Source: Lachnospiraceae bacterium UBA4380
GTDB taxonomy: Bacteria > Bacillota > Clostridia > Lachnospirales > Lachnospiraceae
Assembly (NCBI GenBank): GCA_002390025.1
Contig: DGRU01000217.1
Location: 1-21,365, forward strand
DNA length: 21,365 bases
Reading direction: 5' to 3'
Within the stretch, counting starts at the first letter, position 1. Each line of letters opens with the position of its first letter. The notes under the pieces were generated by a model. That model was not told where the DNA came from, searched no databases, and saw only the letters and a program-made list of their open reading frames with translations. The translations under genes and the position numbers were made by a program. Below are positions 2,969 to 21,365 of this stretch, in pieces.

Positions 2969-3273
2969 AAAAACTGTCCCCCTTTCTTTTAACTATATTA
3001 TGCTTCACGAATCATTCTGCGGCAAGCAACCTGCTGTTGCTCTATTGCCTTATGCCCTGATTGGGGGATACTGCAGTAACCGGCTTTGCCGCAGGGCGTT
3101 TTGCCACCTACAAATTCAGACAGATTCATATTATAATACAGATACATTGTATCAAATAAATGTTTACATTCTAACAAATATACGCTCTAACAGATAAATA
3201 GTTACATTCCAGCGAATATACGGCAATATTGACAGTCGGAAAAATATTTTCCAATCAAAGAGAGGGACTTGTG
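2969..3273. other. Divergent intergenic region between regulator and symporter
   Basis: This 305-bp gap separates divergently transcribed genes and must hold both promoters. The left part (2990-3100) has ordinary composition. From 3120 to 3250 the DNA is strongly AT-rich, with a TATAAT at 3132-3137 and the repeated TTACATTC element described separately. I could not assign a single convincing -35/-10 pair to either gene. Confidence 0.5.
3162..3222 (+). repeat. 38-bp-spaced direct repeat in the symporter promoter region
   Basis: GTTTACATTCTAACAAATATACG (3162-3184) recurs as AGTTACATTCCAGCGAATATACG (3200-3222), matching at about 17 of 23 positions with a 38-bp period. Each copy contains a -35-like TTTACA or GTTACA. 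The pair ends 51 bp before the symporter ATG, so it could be a regulator site, duplicated promoter elements or simply a tandem duplication. Confidence 0.5.
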
Positions 3274-4671
3274 ATGACAACAAGACGATTAACCAAAAAA
3301 GAAATGCGGATCTTTGCAATCGGCCAGCTTGGGTGGTCCACTCTGGGAGGCATTATTAATACCTGGCTGGTCACTTTTTATCTGCCGACCGCCGAATCTG
3401 TGAAGGCAGGCGCTGTCTTCTACATACCGACCGGGCTTGTTGTCTTCGGGCTTCTCACGGTTCTGGGACTGATCACTTTCATATGCCGGATTTTTGACGC
3501 GGTCACAGATCCTCTGATTGCCACTCTTTCCGACCGCAGTGACAATCCGGCAGGAAGAAGGATCCCCTTCATGAAAAGAGCGGCTGTACCCTTCGCGATC
3601 GTGACTGTGCTGGTTTTCTGCGCGCCGGTCAACCGGATCAGCGGGGTCAACATCGCATGGATCCTGGTCTCTCTCATCATCTTCTATCTTTTTATGACGA
3701 TGTACTGTACGCCTTATAATGCGCTGATCTCGGAATTCGGAAAGACACAGTTTGACAGAATGTACATATCGACGGCGATCTCGTTTACCTTTTTTATCGG
3801 CACGCTTCTGGCCTACATGCCTTTTGTTCTGGCCGGTCCTCTTCAGGCGCATATCGGTTATGCCTGGAGTTACAGGATCTGGTTCATTGTGCTTGCCGTG
3901 ATCGCCCTGATCTGCATGCTGACGCCGGTCTTTTGTCTGCGGGAAAGGGATTTTGTGGACTCCAAAGCCAGCGAGTCGGACGTCCTGAAGAGCCTGGGTG
4001 CGACATTCAGAAACAGAGAATTTCTGAAATTTGCCGCCTCAGATATTTCCTACTGGATCGGTCTGACCCTTTTCCAGACAGGCCTTCCCTTTTTCGTAAA
4101 AGTCTCAATGAAACTGGATGAATCCTATACGTTGATCTTCCTTGCCGGAATGACCATTCTGTCCGTCTTTTTCTACCCTGTTGTATCAATCCTTGTCAAA
4201 AGATTCGGAAAGAAAAAGCTGGTTGTATCCGGTTTTCTGGGGCTTGCGCTGGCTTATGTCATCACCGCCCTGATCGGGATACTGCCTCTGCCGGGAGTGG
4301 TATTCGGCATTCTGATCGTGATCATTGCCGCCTTCCCCATGGCCCTTTTAGGCATCATTCCCCAGTCTATCGTCGCGGATGTGGCTGAGGAGGACGGTAT
4401 CAGGACCGGGGAAAAGCGGGAGGGAATGTTCTTTGCCGCCAGGACTTTTTCCATGAAGGCGGGTCAGTCCCTGGCTATGCTGGCTTTCACTTCTCTGGCG
4501 GTGCTCGGGACAACCCAGGATATCACCAGCAATGACCTGACGGCTTCCCCCATCGGCCTCCGGATCGTCTCGATCGTGGCAGTGGCTTTCTGCCTTCTGG
4601 GGGCTGTCATTCTGGGAACATACGATGAAAAAAAAGTTATGGAAGTGATTGAGTCCGGGAAGAAATCCTGA
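3274..4671 (+). CDS. GPH-family (MelB-type) sugar:cation symporter
   Basis: A 465-residue polytopic inner-membrane transporter with about 12 hydrophobic segments. The first cytoplasmic loop carries the glycoside-pentoside-hexuronide family motif around residues 72-98 (RIFDAVTDPLIATLSDRSDN, then GRRIPFM); D75 and D79 match the cation-site aspartates of the MelB family. A second family region, ADVAEEDGIRTGEKREGMFF, lies near residue 370. Members import sugars or glycosides with Na+ or H+; the substrate cannot be read from sequence. I chose ATG 3274, preceded by GAGAGGGA, over a TTG at 3229 with no ribosome site. No glycosidase gene is adjacent, so its substrate link is open; the GH1/GH94 pair lies 14 kb away. 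Confidence 0.9.
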   Translation: MTTRRLTKKEMRIFAIGQLGWSTLGGIINTWLVTFYLPTAESVKAGAVFYIPTGLVVFGLLTVLGLITFICRIFDAVTDPLIATLSDRSDNPAGRRIPFMKRAAVPFAIVTVLVFCAPVNRISGVNIAWILVSLIIFYLFMTMYCTPYNALISEFGKTQFDRMYISTAISFTFFIGTLLAYMPFVLAGPLQAHIGYAWSYRIWFIVLAVIALICMLTPVFCLRERDFVDSKASESDVLKSLGATFRNREFLKFAASDISYWIGLTLFQTGLPFFVKVSMKLDESYTLIFLAGMTILSVFFYPVVSILVKRFGKKKLVVSGFLGLALAYVITALIGILPLPGVVFGILIVIIAAFPMALLGIIPQSIVADVAEEDGIRTGEKREGMFFAARTFSMKAGQSLAMLAFTSLAVLGTTQDITSNDLTASPIGLRIVSIVAVAFCLLGAVILGTYDEKKVMEVIESGKKS

Positions 4672-6080: not shown

Positions 6081-6530
6081 TCACCTTCTGAACAGGGTCT
6101 CCTGGAGGGATACGTATTTGTCCGCAAGACACACCATCCAGGCCTCCTTTGACCTGGGGATCCTGCCGGGGTTGAGCGGCCACATATGGGAGTGGATCAC
6201 CTGCCCGGTCTTCTCGTCAATATCAAAGTATTTTCTGGCATTCTGACAGGCTCTGTCCGCATGCCTGAATCCATGCCAGTGGTGCGATCCGTCCCCCTCC
6301 TCATGCCAGTCATAGAGGTAAAAATCGTGGAGCATGGCTCCCACCAGCAGTGTTTTCATATCGGCATGCAGAGGCAGTTTTCTGTTCAGATTGTAGCACA
6401 GCTTCGCCACCTTTTCACAGTGCTCATAGGTGGAAACATCGCCGTGCTGGATATATTTTTTCATTTCCTGTACATGCTCGTCTGATTGTATATCAGAGAG
6501 GATTTTATTGAGTTCGTCGTATTTGTCCAT
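6081..6530 (-). CDS. HD-domain phosphohydrolase
   Basis: A 149-residue soluble protein. The metal-binding HD signature is present in order: H37 ([14 protein letters not shown]), H68-D69 ([12 protein letters not shown]), histidines in [12 protein letters not shown] and a final Asp in VCLADKYVS. It is a small stand-alone HD protein, a class that hydrolyses nucleotides or phosphate esters; the substrate is not evident. It is the first gene of a probable minus-strand unit with the flavodoxin-fold gene. A TTGACA-containing promoter lies about 180 bp upstream. There is no strong ribosome site before the ATG (only AAAGAAAGACTGA), so translation may be modest. Confidence 0.85.
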
Positions 6531-6739: not shown

Positions 6740-6764
6740 GGATATAAGGTACACATCAGTCAAA

Positions 6765-6807
6765 GGGCCGCAGGGAATCACATCAGGATTCCCCACGGCC
6801 CTTTTTT
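6765..6807. terminator. Intrinsic terminator hairpin
   Basis: GGGCCG-CA-GGGAATC (6765-6779) pairs with GATTCCC-CA-CGGCCC (6787-6801), followed by TTTTTT on the plus strand. On the minus strand, where the lipoprotein transcript arrives from 6915, the tail is only CTTTGACTG, so its stopping power in that direction is less certain. Confidence 0.75.
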
Positions 6808-6914
6808 CATACTTCCGCAGCATGCCGGAGCACTGTGTGCGCAGGCATCGTCAACGAGAAATCCGTGAAGTCGATTTCTGATTTATCTTGCGGAAAACGG
6901 TGTCAGCAGCATGC

Positions 6915-7706
6915 TTACTCTTCCGCTGAAAAATCGAATACCTCTGTGATCTCGGCATTGCCCTCCAGATCCTGGTACACATGTGCAATGACAAACGAGG
7001 ATTCGGCATTGGGAACAACCGGGGTCACCTGGCACAGGATGGAATAGTTGGTTCCGGAAACGAGCTGTGTGGCAAGAAGGGCAATGGGCTTATAGTCCGC
7101 TCCGACCAGCTTTTCCAGTGCTTTGTCCAGAGCTGCCTTCGCCTCATCGGTCATGTCAGGGGATTCGGGATTCTCCCATGCTCCCATCAGTTCTCCGGGG
7201 AGAGCTTCCCCTTCAGCCTGAGACTCAAGGATATCTGTGATCGAAGCATTTCCGTCCAGATCCTCATACAGGGTGACGATTGCGTAGTGCGGGACTGCAT
7301 CGGGTACAACCGGTGTGATCCTGCAGAGGAGCTGGTAGTTGGTTCCCGCCACGACCTGGCTGCCGATCAGGGCAACCGGCTCATATTCCGCTCCGAGCAG
7401 TTTTTCCGCCGCCTTTTCAAGAAGGGCTTTTACTTCCGCGGGGACTTCAGGAGACTCCGCCGGGGTCCAGCCGCCGACGATCGCTGCTTCCTGCGCAGTG
7501 AACGCTTCTTCCGCGGCCTCTCCGCTATTCTCTTCTGCTGCCTCTTCTGTCACTGTTTCTGCTGTTTCTTCTGTTACTGTGGCTTCTGTTGCTTCTGCCG
7601 CAGCAGCTTCTTTTTGCTCTGTCTGTGTATCGGTCTGTTTCTGTCCGCAGGCTGCCAGTGAAAAGATTAAGAGTCCTGCGAGCACAAATGCATTAATCTT
7701 TTTCAT
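6915..7706 (-). CDS. Lipoprotein with two cystatin/stefin-like domains
   Basis: A 263-residue protein. Residues 1-20 form a lipoprotein signal (lipobox LAAC, C20), so it is anchored on the outer face of the membrane. Residues 21-70 are an Ala/Glu/Thr linker. Two repeats of about 97 residues follow. Each has an N-terminal Gly-Trp element (GGW at 78-80, GAW at 175-177), a helix (VKALLEKAAEKLLG; AKAALDKALEKLVG), the loop QVVAGTNY (117-124) or QLVSGTNY (214-221), a PVVP turn and a strand VTLYEDLDGN or AHVYQDLEGN. This order matches type-1 cystatins (stefins), in which the N-terminal glycine and QxVxG loop enter the active site of papain-like proteases. Inhibition of secreted or host cysteine proteases is inferred. 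AGGAG precedes the ATG; no partner gene is adjacent. Confidence 0.85.
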   Translation of the reverse strand: MKKINAFVLAGLLIFSLAACGQKQTDTQTEQKEAAAAEATEATVTEETAETVTEEAAEENSGEAAEEAFTAQEAAIVGGWTPAESPEVPAEVKALLEKAAEKLLGAEYEPVALIGSQVVAGTNYQLLCRITPVVPDAVPHYAIVTLYEDLDGNASITDILESQAEGEALPGELMGAWENPESPDMTDEAKAALDKALEKLVGADYKPIALLATQLVSGTNYSILCQVTPVVPNAESSFVIAHVYQDLEGNAEITEVFDFSAEE

Positions 7707-7943: not shown

Positions 7944-8186
7944 CTGTATTTCGGTTCATTCATTCCGGTTTCTCGTGTTTTTTCAAAAGACATCCGCATT
8001 GACATTTCCATTTCCTGGAACTATATTCGAAAAAACAGGGGAGGATGCAAGGTCTACGTCGCAATCGGTTCACAGAAAGCTCTTTTCCGGCCTGCTTCAG
8101 CTTCAAAGACAGTATTTTCCGCAGGGATCCGGGCAGACGATCTGCAGATCGATTTTAAGCAGATCAGTGAGGAAATCGCTGAATAA
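7944..8186 (+). other. Open frame without start codon, possible gene remnant
   Basis: The frame from 7944 to the TAA at 8184-8186 is open for 80 codons with no ATG, GTG or TTG. Its second half (CKVYVAIGSQKALFRPA, then AGIRADDLQIDFKQISEEIAE) has a protein-like composition and ends like a normal helical C-terminus. I do not recognise a family. It may be the 3' end of a truncated gene, or chance in GC-rich DNA. Other frames here (for example 7975-8241) look less protein-like. The 7777-7943 stretch shows nothing I can support. Confidence 0.25.
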
Positions 8187-8271
8187 AACAATAATCAGGA
8201 CAATAAATAAATGGGACAAGATAAAAAGGGACAATTCATAAAAGGAATACGACAATAAAAGGGATAAAACA
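8184..8271 (+). repeat. Degenerate 15-17-nt tandem repeats in the MoxR leader
   Basis: Five or six imperfect units of the type GGGACAA-n-ATAAAA run up to the MoxR start codon, including ACAATAAATAAATGGGACAA, GATAAAAAGGGACAATTC, ATAAAAGGAATACGACAA and TAAAAGGGATAAAACA. Each unit carries a TAA and a purine stretch such as AAAAGGG that can act as a weak ribosome site. The last one (8258-8263) serves the MoxR gene. Confidence 0.6.
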
Positions 8272-9090
8272 ATGATCAAAACATCGGGACTGGAAACAAG
8301 TCAATCCTATATCGCATCGGAAGATCTGATGAAAACCGTGAACATCGCCATGACGCTGGAAAAGCCTCTGCTCGTCAAGGGCGAGCCGGGCACCGGCAAG
8401 ACCATGCTGGCACAGGCGATCGCGGATGCTCTGGGCAGAAAACTCCTGATCTGGAACATCAAATCGACGACAAAAGCCCAGGACGGTCTCTACACCTACG
8501 ATGTGGTGCAGCGGCTCTACGACAGCCAGTTCGGAGCAAATGTCGATGATGTCAGTAAGTATATAAAATACGGAAAGATCGGCGAAGCATTTCTGTCTGA
8601 GGAGCAGGTGGTTCTGCTGATCGATGAGATCGATAAGGCGGATCTCGAGTTTCCCAATGACCTGTTATGGGAAATGGATCAGATGGAGTTCTATGTGCAG
8701 GAGACAAAGGAGACGATCCGGGCAAAGCATCGTCCAATCGTGATCATCACGTCCAATGCGGAGAAGGAGCTTCCGGACGCATTTTTGCGCCGGTGTATTT
8801 TCCACTATATCGAATTTCCTGCTCTGGGGCAGATGAAGGAGATCATCCGCGCCCATTTCGGCGACATCGATCAGGAGATCCTCCAGCAGGCAGTGCTCAC
8901 TTTCTACAACATACGGCGGGTGCAGAACCTCTCCAAAAAGCCCAGCACTTCCGAGCTGATCGACTGGCTGCGGGCACTGCTGGCCGCAGGTGTGGATCCG
9001 GCCGCCGTTTCGTCAGAACTGCCCTATCTGGGCGTCCTCATCAAAAAAGACAAGGATTATGCCCAGGTACAGAATTCCATGCGCCATTGA
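8272..9090 (+). CDS. MoxR-family AAA+ ATPase
   Basis: A 272-residue cytoplasmic AAA+ protein. Walker A is GEPGTGKT (37-44), Walker B is VLLIDEID (114-121, D118/E119), and sensor 1 is the Asn of IITSNAE (N162), followed by an arginine pair (AFLRRC) in the arginine-finger position. Residues about 200-272 form the small helical lid. MoxR ATPases act as chaperones that insert metals or remodel enzyme complexes, nearly always with a VWA-domain partner. Such a partner follows 61 bp downstream in the same direction, so the two form a MoxR-VWA module. No metalloenzyme operon is adjacent, so the client is unknown. The purine-rich AAAAGGGA before the ATG is the ribosome site. Confidence 0.92.
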   Translation: MIKTSGLETSQSYIASEDLMKTVNIAMTLEKPLLVKGEPGTGKTMLAQAIADALGRKLLIWNIKSTTKAQDGLYTYDVVQRLYDSQFGANVDDVSKYIKYGKIGEAFLSEEQVVLLIDEIDKADLEFPNDLLWEMDQMEFYVQETKETIRAKHRPIVIITSNAEKELPDAFLRRCIFHYIEFPALGQMKEIIRAHFGDIDQEILQQAVLTFYNIRRVQNLSKKPSTSELIDWLRALLAAGVDPAAVSSELPYLGVLIKKDKDYAQVQNSMRH

Positions 9091-14870: not shown

Positions 14871-16178
14871 ATGAGAAAGACAAGATTTATGACTGCTGCC
14901 ATCTGTGCGGTAATGCTCAGTGCTATGACCGCATTCCATGCATATTGCGATACATCTGCCTCCTCCGCAGCAGGGCTGACATCAGGAACGGAGACCTATG
15001 TTTCCGAAACGGCAGAGGAAGCGGAGAACTCATCAGAAACAGACACCGTCTATAATGTCTCGGGCACTGACACGGCTTCCGCCAGCGGGAGCAGCGCCCT
15101 GGACACTTCCGACCTTTTCTCAAGCCGCGACCTTGAGCAGACAGCCGATCTGACAGGGGCGGAAAACATCACCGTGAGTGACGGAGAGACCTACACGATC
15201 AGCAAAGAGGGCGTGTATGTAGTCACGGGAAGCGCCTCCAATGCACAGATCGTCGTCTCCGCAGGCGATGAGGACAAGGTCCAGCTGGTCCTGGACAGTG
15301 TCTCGATCACCAACGAGAGCACCCCCTGCATCTACGTTCAGAATGCCGACAAGGTCTTTGTCACGACGACAGACTCCGAAAATACACTGACAGTCTCCGG
15401 CACCTTCACTGCCGACGGCGACACAAATACGGACGCCGTGATCTTCTCCAGAGATGACCTGGTCGTAAACGGAACAGGCACACTTAATATCGTCTCCAGC
15501 GAAAACGGCATCAGCGGCAAGGATGATCTCAAGGTCACAGGCGGCACGATCAATATCACCTGTACAGCAGACGCACTCGAGGCCAACGAGTCCATCCTGG
15601 TGGCGGACGGCACCCTTACTATCAATTCTGAAAAAGACGGCCTGCACGCAGAGAACGACGAGGACAATACTGTCGGTTACATCTATATAGCAGGCGGTAC
15701 GGTCACCATCGAGGCAGGCGACGACGCGATCCACGCAACAACCATTGCCCAGGTGGACGGGGGCACGATCGACCTGACTGCCGCAGAGGGCATCGAGGGC
15801 ACTTACATCCAGATCAACGGCGGCACACTCTCTATTGCAGCGGCCGACGACGGCATCAACGCCGGTCAGAAGTCCAATTTCGCAACTCCCACTGTCGAAG
15901 TCAACGGCGGTGAGCTCACCATCGTGATGGGTTCCGGCGACACCGACGGCGTGGACTCCAACGGCAACCTCTATCTGAACGGGGGCACACTGAATATCAC
16001 TGCCCAGAGTCCCTTTGATTACGACGGAACCGCTCAGAACAACGGTGCAACCCTCATCGTCAACGGCTCCGAGACCGACTCCATCACCAACCAGATGATG
16101 GGAGGCGGCGGCATGGGCAGAGACATGGGCGGCATGCACGGCGGCATGGGCGGCCGCGGCGGACATGGTGGTTTCTGA
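14871..16178 (+). CDS. Secreted Cthe_2159-type carbohydrate-binding beta-helix protein
   Basis: A 435-residue exported protein. Residues 1-26 are a signal peptide (basic start, AAICAVMLSAMTAFHAYC). A Ser/Thr/Glu-rich spacer follows to about residue 85. Residues 90-400 are repeats of short beta-strand turns with many GGT(L/I)(T/N)I and DG(L/I)(H/N)A(E/G/T) elements, the pattern of the Cthe_2159 family (annotated as carbohydrate-binding domain), a calcium-rich beta-helix that binds plant polysaccharides such as polygalacturonate. The last 25 residues are very rich in Gly, Met and His (GGGGMGRDMGGMHGG) and could bind metal; this tail is common in the family. No sortase motif or lipobox is seen, so it is probably released or weakly wall-bound. 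The AGGAATAGGATT site precedes the start. Confidence 0.9.
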   Translation: MRKTRFMTAAICAVMLSAMTAFHAYCDTSASSAAGLTSGTETYVSETAEEAENSSETDTVYNVSGTDTASASGSSALDTSDLFSSRDLEQTADLTGAENITVSDGETYTISKEGVYVVTGSASNAQIVVSAGDEDKVQLVLDSVSITNESTPCIYVQNADKVFVTTTDSENTLTVSGTFTADGDTNTDAVIFSRDDLVVNGTGTLNIVSSENGISGKDDLKVTGGTINITCTADALEANESILVADGTLTINSEKDGLHAENDEDNTVGYIYIAGGTVTIEAGDDAIHATTIAQVDGGTIDLTAAEGIEGTYIQINGGTLSIAAADDGINAGQKSNFATPTVEVNGGELTIVMGSGDTDGVDSNGNLYLNGGTLNITAQSPFDYDGTAQNNGATLIVNGSETDSITNQMMGGGGMGRDMGGMHGGMGGRGGHGGF

Positions 16179-18909: not shown

Positions 18910-20358
18910 TTAAATGATTTCTCCCCTGGTACGTATCACCTCGGAGTACCATGCGGCGCTGTCTTTGGGGATGCGCTCCATGGTCCGGTAGTCGACATAG
19001 ATCAGTCCGAAGCGGTCGTCATAGCCGCTGTGCCATTCGTAGTTGTCCGTGAAGGACCAGTGGAAATAGCCCCGCACCGGCAGGCCGTCCAGGCAGGCCT
19101 TTTTCAATGCGCGCAGATAGCGGTGCAGGAAATCGATCCGGTCGGGATCGTGCACGCCTCCGTCCAGGAAGATCCTGTCGTTGCAGCTCTGCCCGTTCTC
19201 TGTGATATAGACCGGCACATGGTAGCGCTCAAAGATCAGTCGAGGCCCCCAGTAGAGAACTTCGGGAGTCACGGGCCACTTGAGGGCAGTGCGGGGATAG
19301 CCCGGATATTTTTCCTCCATGACATATTCCCCCGTCTCATCCTGCACCAGCCCGTGGCCGTTGTAGATATTGAGTCCGGCGAAATCGATGGGCTCGGAAA
19401 TGATCTCCAGATCCTCCTGCGGAGTACTGCCGGCGAAGGCCGCCCAGGGATTCAGGGGATCGTCCGGATAATGTCCCAGAAAAACAGGATCGAAAAACCA
19501 CTGGTGGTTAAAAAAGTAACCCGGATTTATATCGGGCGGCAGGGAGCGGAAGGAAGCTGTCCGCAGGGCCTCCGGCGTCTCCATAGCTCTGTCTCTGTCC
19601 GGATCATCGCCCGGCATTTCGTGCAGATAGGCCAGGGCGCCTGTGGAGGAAGCTCCGATCTGCGCGTCAGGCGCTTCCCTGCGGATGGCGCGGACAGCCA
19701 GCCCGTGGGCCAGCAGCAGGTTATGCCAGCAGCGGAACAGGCTCTGCGGATCCAGCTGCAGGCCGGGTGCGTGCAGGCCGTTCCCCATGCCCATACCGAT
19801 GGCGCACTGGGGTTCATTGATCGTGATATAGTTTGTCACACGTCCTTTGAAATGCGCGGCGACAAAATCGGCATAGTCGGCAAAGCGGTCCGCGGTCTCA
19901 CGGTTCATCCACCCGCCCTTATGATAGAGGGCCAGGGGCAGGTCCCAGTGATAAAGGGTGATCCAGGGTGTTATGCCGCGGGAAAGGCAGCCGTCCACAA
20001 TGCGGTCGTAGTAGGCGATGCCGGCGGGATTGAGCCCGCCGAGAGAAGAGGCAAAACCGCTGCCGCCGCTGCCATTTGCTCCATCTGCTCCGTTTACCGT
20101 GCCGTCAGGAAAAATGCGCGGCCAGCTGAGACTGAAGCGGTAGTTGCTGATGCCCAGGCTCTGCATCAGATCCAGGTCCTCCTCCGCCCGGTGATAGGCA
20201 TCGCAGGCTGTGTCGCCAGTATGTCCGTTAAAAGTCTTTCCGGGCACATGTGAAAAATGATCCCAGATCGACGGCCCCTTGCCGTCCTCGAAGGCTCCGC
20301 CTTCGATCTGGTAGGCGGCGCTTGCCGCCCCCCATACAAAATGATCAGAAAACTGCAT
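18910..20358 (-). CDS. GH1 beta-glucosidase (6-phospho- or free beta-glucoside)
   Basis: A 482-residue cytoplasmic glycoside hydrolase of family 1. The N-terminal family signature FVWGAASAAYQIEGG is present. The acid/base Glu is E182 in TINEPQ, and the nucleophile is E387 in YITENGQS. The glucose-contact end EWHSGYDDRFGLIYVDY is the form usual for true beta-glucosidases rather than 6-phospho-beta-glucosidases. Residues 87-108 are an extra loop rich in Gly, Ser, Ala and Asn (GTVNGADGANGSGGSG) not found in most members. The start lies 2 bp past the stop of the GH94 gene, whose last codons supply the ribosome site GGGAGAA, so translation is probably coupled. Together they would process imported cellobiose or longer beta-glucans in the cell. 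Confidence 0.94.
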   Translation of the reverse strand: MQFSDHFVWGAASAAYQIEGGAFEDGKGPSIWDHFSHVPGKTFNGHTGDTACDAYHRAEEDLDLMQSLGISNYRFSLSWPRIFPDGTVNGADGANGSGGSGFASSLGGLNPAGIAYYDRIVDGCLSRGITPWITLYHWDLPLALYHKGGWMNRETADRFADYADFVAAHFKGRVTNYITINEPQCAIGMGMGNGLHAPGLQLDPQSLFRCWHNLLLAHGLAVRAIRREAPDAQIGASSTGALAYLHEMPGDDPDRDRAMETPEALRTASFRSLPPDINPGYFFNHQWFFDPVFLGHYPDDPLNPWAAFAGSTPQEDLEIISEPIDFAGLNIYNGHGLVQDETGEYVMEEKYPGYPRTALKWPVTPEVLYWGPRLIFERYHVPVYITENGQSCNDRIFLDGGVHDPDRIDFLHRYLRALKKACLDGLPVRGYFHWSFTDNYEWHSGYDDRFGLIYVDYRTMERIPKDSAAWYSEVIRTRGEII

Positions 20359-20360
20359 GA

Positions 20361-21365
20361 TTATTCTCCCATGACAACCTTCACTTCATACTCCGCGCAG
20401 CCGTCCCGCACAGGGATCAGTGTGCCGCTGACCTTGGCTCCGTTAACAGTCATCGAAAGCACCCCGTGCTGGACGCCGGCGCTATTGTCGATCTCGATGT
20501 GATAGACGGCACCGCGGTAGGTCCGCTCGCAGCGATAGCTCTTCAGCGTATCCGGGATGCAGGGATCGATCTGCAGGCCGTCCAGTGTCGGGCGGATTCC
20601 CAGGATGTACTGGCTCATGCAGGCAAAGGTCCAGGCTGCCGTTCCGGTCAGCCAGCTGTTTTTTCCCTCTCCGAAGGTTGCGGCATCCCGTCCCGCGATC
20701 ATCTGGCAGTATACATAGGGCTCTACCCGCCGTGTATCCACCATATCCTCCAGGTAGAAAGGACAGGTCTTGCGGAACACCTCAAAGGCGCGGTTTCCGT
20801 GGCCCAGGACGGTCTCGGCACAGGCGATCCAGGGATTGTTGTGGCAGAAAATACCGGCGTTTTCCTTGTATCCGGGCGGATAGGATGTGATCTCGCCAAG
20901 TTCCGGATGGTAGACCGTATAGGCCGGCTGATGCAGTACGATGCCGAACTCTGTATCCAGGTGCTTTCCGACGCTCTCAAGCGCTGCGGCAGCCTGCCCT
21001 GTCTCGACACCGACACCTGCCATGACGCACATGCCCTGGGGTTCAATGTAGATTTTTCCTTCCTCGCAGAGATGACTTCCAACCGGTCTGGAGAAGGCGT
21101 CATAGGCCCGGACAAACCACTCTCCGTCCCAGCCGGCATCCAGGATGATCTTTTTCATATCCTCGACTTCGCGGCGGACCTCATCCGCCTCTTGCGAAAG
21201 TCCCTTGTGGTCGCACAGGTCCGCATATTCCAGTCCGTATTTGACAAACATGCCCGCGATGAAAACACTCTCCGCAACCGGGCCCTCGCTGGGTCCCGTT
21301 GTCTGAAAGCTCTCGCCGGGAGTTGTGGAGAAGCAGTTCAGATTCAGGCAGTCGTTCCAGTCGGC
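20361..21365 (-). CDS. GH94 cellobiose-type phosphorylase, C-terminal part (cut by window edge)
   Basis: The last 334 residues of a GH94 phosphorylase; the gene runs past the right edge. The visible part opens with ADWNDCLNL, where the Asp of DWNDC is the family catalytic acid. It continues with [31 protein letters not shown] and [20 protein letters not shown], segments typical of cellobiose and chitobiose phosphorylases, and ends in the C-terminal beta domain ([11 protein letters not shown]). These enzymes split a disaccharide with phosphate to a sugar 1-phosphate, saving ATP. Sequence features favour cellobiose, but other beta-linked disaccharides are not excluded. An internal ATG at 21251 is not the start, because the family sequence continues upstream in frame. 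It forms an operon with GH1. Confidence 0.93.

Follow-up and report, generated by a model that had tools for sequence, protein, structure and literature searches.

The 21,365-nucleotide contig DGRU01000217.1 of Lachnospiraceae bacterium UBA4380, a relative of rumen Clostridia (GenBank assembly GCA_002390025.1), referred to here at its full length as the window, carries on its minus strand at 6915..7706 a gene for a predicted lipoprotein of 263 amino acids with two stefin-like domains. This architecture had been proposed in an earlier sequence-only reading of the window, and it is well supported by sequence profiles, residue conservation and predicted fold. The protein is interpreted, with a probability of roughly two in three, as a secreted, lipid-anchored, tandem stefin-like inhibitor whose likely targets are foreign papain-family (C1A) cysteine proteases at the cell surface. 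Inhibition of papain-like proteases by the two domains is likely by analogy with other cystatins, and the anchored tandem form, from a family of 1008 matches, is amenable to expression and assay.

Cystatin identity and predicted fold

A homologue search returned 1008 proteins at E<=1e-3, of which the best 120 were listed. Alignment A1 comprised the query and 84 of these 120, with longer and some near-identical forms excluded, and A2 was a single-domain profile of 50 out of 147 segments that were picked by motif and are hence motif-selected. When compared with the sequences of the Protein Data Bank (PDB), the A1 profile ranked cystatins or stefins in all of the top 19 places (E 9e-4 to 0.21), and the A2 profile ranked 17 cystatins on top (best E 1.9e-5), the earliest non-cystatin being a chorismate mutase (E 0.075). 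Both rankings, led by PDB cystatins or stefins, support the sequence-only reading. Domains of this kind serve animals as small inhibitors against papain-like proteases. A strict assignment to the stefins is less sure: secreted tick cystatins were the best A2 profile matches, placed above stefin A, and in the fold comparison of domain 1 type-1 stefins were level with plant multicystatin in the top rows.

AlphaFold2 (AF2) models have the cystatin fold, in which a helix is wrapped by a curved antiparallel sheet in the order strand-helix-four strands; this is the helix within a wrapped beta-sheet for which a structure prediction had been advised. Structural comparison with VIA-align gave cystatins in the top rows, and Foldseek on its own gave a weaker cystatin signal than VIA-align.

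Two results weigh against the cystatin assignment. The PF00031 score of the query alone was 18.6 bits, below the cut-off of 22.2, and the long helix expected from the sequence was not borne out, the AF2 helices being short (11 residues). The gathering score of PF00031, which the query misses, sets a limit of detection and does not describe a biological property. PF00031 was matched at E<=0.01 by 21 of the 85 rows of A1, and a relative with four repeats (P0022) lies above the cut-off, its whole-protein score being 39.5 bits. A precomputed Pfam Cystatin match was present on 1 of the 120 listed homologues, and the few names given were "hypothetical protein". All 23 NCBIfam matches to the query were below cut-off and fell within residues 1-101, and no Pfam family was matched at E<=1 by three short proteins of 87-91 residues (L091, L104 and L106) or by the phage protein of L103. 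An I9-like serine-inhibitor domain was suspected in the relative P0081 and was dropped, as Pfam gave no support.

Protein architecture

The open reading frame (ORF) at 6915..7706 begins with ATG, as given by the ORF list and the translation. The features of the gene are as follows.

6915..7706, minus strand: gene for the predicted lipoprotein with two stefin-like domains, 263 amino acids (ORF list, translation and homologues)
7647..7706, minus strand: type-II signal peptide with lipobox LAAC, Cys20 (sequence)
7482..7646, minus strand: acidic low-complexity linker, residues 21-75, disordered (predicted local distance difference test score, pLDDT, about 50 over residues 1-70)
7215..7481, minus strand: stefin-like domain 1, residues 76-164
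7344..7358, minus strand: first hairpin of domain 1, QVVAG, residues 117-121 (beta2-beta3 turn in the AF2 model)
7251..7259, minus strand: second hairpin of domain 1, L-D-G, residues 150-152 (row conservation)
6927..7190, minus strand: stefin-like domain 2, residues 173-260
7053..7067, minus strand: first hairpin of domain 2, QLVSG, residues 214-218 (row conservation)
6960..6968, minus strand: second hairpin of domain 2, L-E-G, residues 247-249 (row conservation)

The sequence motifs of the repeats were recovered: a spacing of 97 residues (Q117 to Q214), an N-terminal Gly with Trp in each repeat (GGW78-80 and GAW175-177), QVVAGTNY at 117-124 with QLVSGTNY at 214-221, and PVVP in both repeats (132-135 and 229-232). 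A lipobox was found by a loose pattern in 80 of the 85 rows of A1. The sole Cys of each domain lies at a matching place (C128 at 7323-7325 and C225 at 7032-7034), is kept in 82/85 and 85/85 rows, respectively, and has no evident partner. With one Cys per domain there can be no within-domain disulfide, which agrees with a type-1 stefin trait; the further trait of a single-domain, cytosolic protein without signal peptide does not hold for the query, which has two domains and a lipobox. The gene is the sole copy in the genome of the window (2.9 Mb, 75% complete), where four weaker matches are confined to query residues 1-96 (signal, linker and start of domain 1).

Conservation of the papain-contact positions

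The papain-contact positions of stefins, which we take to be two N-terminal residues, the Q/V/G of the first hairpin and the L/G of the second, were compared by entropy with the other positions of both domains over the rows of A1. The median entropy was 0.09 bits at the contact positions versus 1.34 at the other 161 domain positions (p 1e-7), a result that is descriptive and not a blind test, since the invariant columns had been noticed before the comparison was made. For the 61 of those 161 positions at which the query has G, L, Q, V or A, the median was 1.28 bits. The N-terminal Gly is present in 84/85 rows for domain 1 (G78) and 85/85 for domain 2 (G175), Q-x-V/I-x-G in 84/85 and 85/85, and the L-x-G of the second hairpin in 77/85 and 78/85; Gly and QxVxG occur together in both domains in 83/85 rows.

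These elements would make up a three-part cystatin wedge in each domain (N-terminal Gly segment, QxVxG first hairpin and L-x-G second hairpin), which, as in the cystatin family, may reversibly plug the active-site cleft of C1A proteases. The type-II signal peptide would export the protein, Cys20 would be lipidated to give a surface location, and the flexible acidic linker of some 55 residues, as judged from sequence and model, would space both domains from the membrane. Two enzymes could be bound at once by the two domains in a kininogen-like manner, kininogens being described as able to hold two enzymes (PMC10380794).

In four distant two-domain carriers (L093, L095, L096 and L100) the QxVxG of domain 2 is lost or changed and a form of the motif is retained in domain 1, which may represent division of labour or decay. 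QVAAG is present twice in L102.

Distribution and tandem history

The family sample represented each genus of the window's family by one genome (n=150). Matches were found in 16 of these 150 genomes, and 13 carriers were left once three N-terminal-only matches (G010, G024 and G038, which end by profile position 94) had been removed and tallied with the non-carriers. Two of the 13 are single-domain (G015 and G046), and two have a stop within the match, with no evident lipobox (G134 and G142). In the class sample 9/391 genomes matched.

Named genomes yielded 444 confirmed relatives; the best 80 loci, ranked by likeness to the query, were taken. Their titles all name Bacillota or groups inside Bacillota, and 27/80 name goat, buffalo, sheep, red deer or rumen; a further 36 RUG bins, 6 RUI bins and 3 isolates (P7, AC2029 and KH2T6) are presumably of rumen origin, and the habitat of the remaining 8/80 is not assignable from the title. 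The best named loci are thus largely from the ruminant gut, a pattern which, given the ranking by query likeness and the lack of a habitat control, may stem from similarity and sampling.

A tree built on 108 domains of 54 sources, each with exactly two motif-pattern matches, separated first domains (D1) from second domains (D2) with support of 87/91, on few columns and with the bootstrap unsettled. Two rows fell on the opposite side, each the D1 of a Ruminococcus albus-type pair. The split suggests that the tandem duplication is older than the spread over Lachnospiraceae-, Oscillospiraceae- and Eubacteriaceae-named records. Two genomes of the same family have single-domain forms of ~90 residues without evident signal (L091 and L092), which might be similar to the parental form.

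IMG/VR contigs hold related sequences. On contig 3300028833_000267 (L103), which also matches dCMP deaminase and groEL of PHROGs, positions 7983-8597 encode a protein of 204 amino acids in which the stefin-like repeat occurs twice and a signal peptide is not evident; it may be a tandem stefin carried by a phage. Another IMG/VR contig (L104) has a 91-aa ORF at 3025-3300 with one stefin-like domain, and some bacterial stefins may travel on mobile elements.

Candidate targets and alternative explanations

Staphostatins control staphopains, and a similar control of the organism's own secreted C1A peptidases, among the targets put forward by the sequence-only reading, is an unlikely alternative here. 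C1A genes are frequent, PF00112 being present in 71/150 family genomes and in 10/20 named carrier genomes (which cover 20 of the 80 loci), with one match in Lachnospiraceae AC2029. Against this, no PF00112 match was found in the genome of the window (75% complete), in 8/13 family carriers, in the other 10 of the 20 named genomes or, specifically, in G537, the genome of the Ruminococcus albus KH2T6 locus. Carriership and PF00112 showed no association in the family sample (5/13 carriers versus 66/137 others; Fisher p 0.57). In the five family carriers with C1A genes, these are on a different contig or 32 kb or more from the cystatin gene, so that adjacency to a target protease of the staphostatin type was not seen, with neighbours not annotated for other protease classes. 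The patchy occurrence of PF00112 and the distance of the C1A genes imply that a cognate endogenous enzyme is not a general explanation and that foreign cysteine peptidases are the more likely targets. No serpin was found in the genome of the window.

Possible foreign targets in the ruminant gut would be ciliate cathepsins, cysteine peptidases of other bacteria, plant papain-like proteases and host cathepsins. For the rumen ciliate Entodinium caudatum, abundant C1A/cathepsin transcripts are reported, some with signal peptides, together with a cystatin-B-like protein of its own (PMC6925433). Iodoacetamide is reported to have reduced chiefly large entodiniomorphs, although its effect was the weakest among three inhibitors, and the same source gives cysteine peptidases as the major bacterial peptidase type in the rumen (PMC6908469). 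The ciliate transcripts and the rumen cysteine peptidases make ciliates and competing bacteria both plausible sources of targets; plant and host enzymes are likewise plausible. A more specific proposal, bold but testable and at present rather doubtful, is that ruminant-gut Clostridia display lipid-anchored bivalent cystatins as a shield from grazing and proteolysis, directed at the cathepsins of predatory ciliates and at other cysteine proteases of rumen fluid. Protection from ciliate cathepsins, if true, would bear on rumen predation and nitrogen recycling, and cysteine peptidases have been suggested as a rumen target for better nitrogen use (PMC6908469). Such a shield would also make cystatin-based defence an old shared trait of ruminant-gut Clostridia and offer a means of influencing the turnover of microbial protein in ruminants.

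The domains could instead be cystatin-fold binding modules that do not inhibit proteases and serve in adhesion, ligand sensing or signalling with an extracytoplasmic function (ECF)-type sigma factor. Monellin and CRES are known non-inhibitory cystatin folds, some relatives carry a DUF4367-like domain (sub-threshold in Pfam), and a sigma-factor-like gene, named by eye, is close to the cystatin gene in 9/80 loci. The other 71/80 have no sigma gene nearby (fusions not counted), and the near-invariant papain-contact positions are hard to account for without inhibition, which leaves this explanation improbable, about on a par with control of the organism's own enzymes. Inhibition of a protease class other than C1A (legumain C13, bacterial C10 or C11, or an aspartic protease) is very unlikely: squash aspartic inhibitor (SQAPI) and legumain-bound cystatin E/M were among the matches, but the SQAPI matches were below the Pfam cut-off for the proteins whose scores were examined, and the conserved wedge is presumably the C1A site, which is distinct from the legumain site.

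Comparison with known inhibitors

Type-1 cystatins (stefins; MEROPS I25) have in common with the query the fold, the wedge order and the lack of a within-domain disulfide (stefin B and CsStefin-1 being examples), whereas the query differs in its lipobox signal peptide, its two domains and its short helix. A PVVP-containing stretch precedes beta4 in the query and is absent from Dictyostelium cystatin A2. Kininogens and plant multicystatins are eukaryotic and, unlike the predicted state of the query, not known to be membrane-anchored.

Stefins were reported in eight bacterial phyla, including Clostridia with stefins of Clostridium, along with a triple-domain Polaribacter cystatin (Kordis and Turk 2009, PMC2784779), and these bacterial stefins and cystatins resemble the query family in their bacterial membership and patchy distribution. 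The same authors proposed that bacterial stefins act on eukaryotic proteases and noted verified inhibition for bacterial chagasin only; the word "lipoprotein" occurs nowhere in the main text of that article, in which no two-domain anchored stefin was found described. A literature search covering few subscription papers found no rumen, lipid-anchored or assayed bacterial stefin. Bacterial cystatins are already known, and the double lipid-anchored form was not found described in the literature searched. Brucella Omp19 (I38), a lipid-anchored inhibitor reported to shield the bacterium from foreign proteases, is alike in its working, but belongs to an inhibitor family unrelated to that of the query (PMC6607954).

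Gene neighbourhood and remainder of the window

The ORFs of the 80 loci and of the window were clustered, and gene maps were drawn for 49 loci, with neighbours named by eye and not by a family scan. Apart from the cystatin and antisense ORFs, the largest neighbour cluster was the sigma-like gene, present in 10 loci and near the cystatin gene in nine (L035, L047, L057, L062, L067, L074, L075, L084 and L085). Several of these nine have a further gene that clusters with cystatin proteins, and the nine loci may hold a family variant, with DUF4367-like domains, that is subject to regulation. A cluster of ORFs antisense to the cystatin gene (14 loci) was rejected as an artefact of ORF picking.

Between positions 6500 and 8300 of the window, neither promoter-like sites (3 versus 2.0 in shuffles) nor terminator-like sites (3 versus 1.8) were in excess, and a stem-loop noted by eye near 6760-6810 was not among the sites called. 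Elsewhere in the window, a GH1 enzyme adjoins a GH94 enzyme at 18910-21365 and an MFS_2-family sugar transporter is encoded at 3229-4671, genes that fit with growth on plant sugars. The carbohydrate-binding family Cthe_2159 is strongly matched at 14871-16178.
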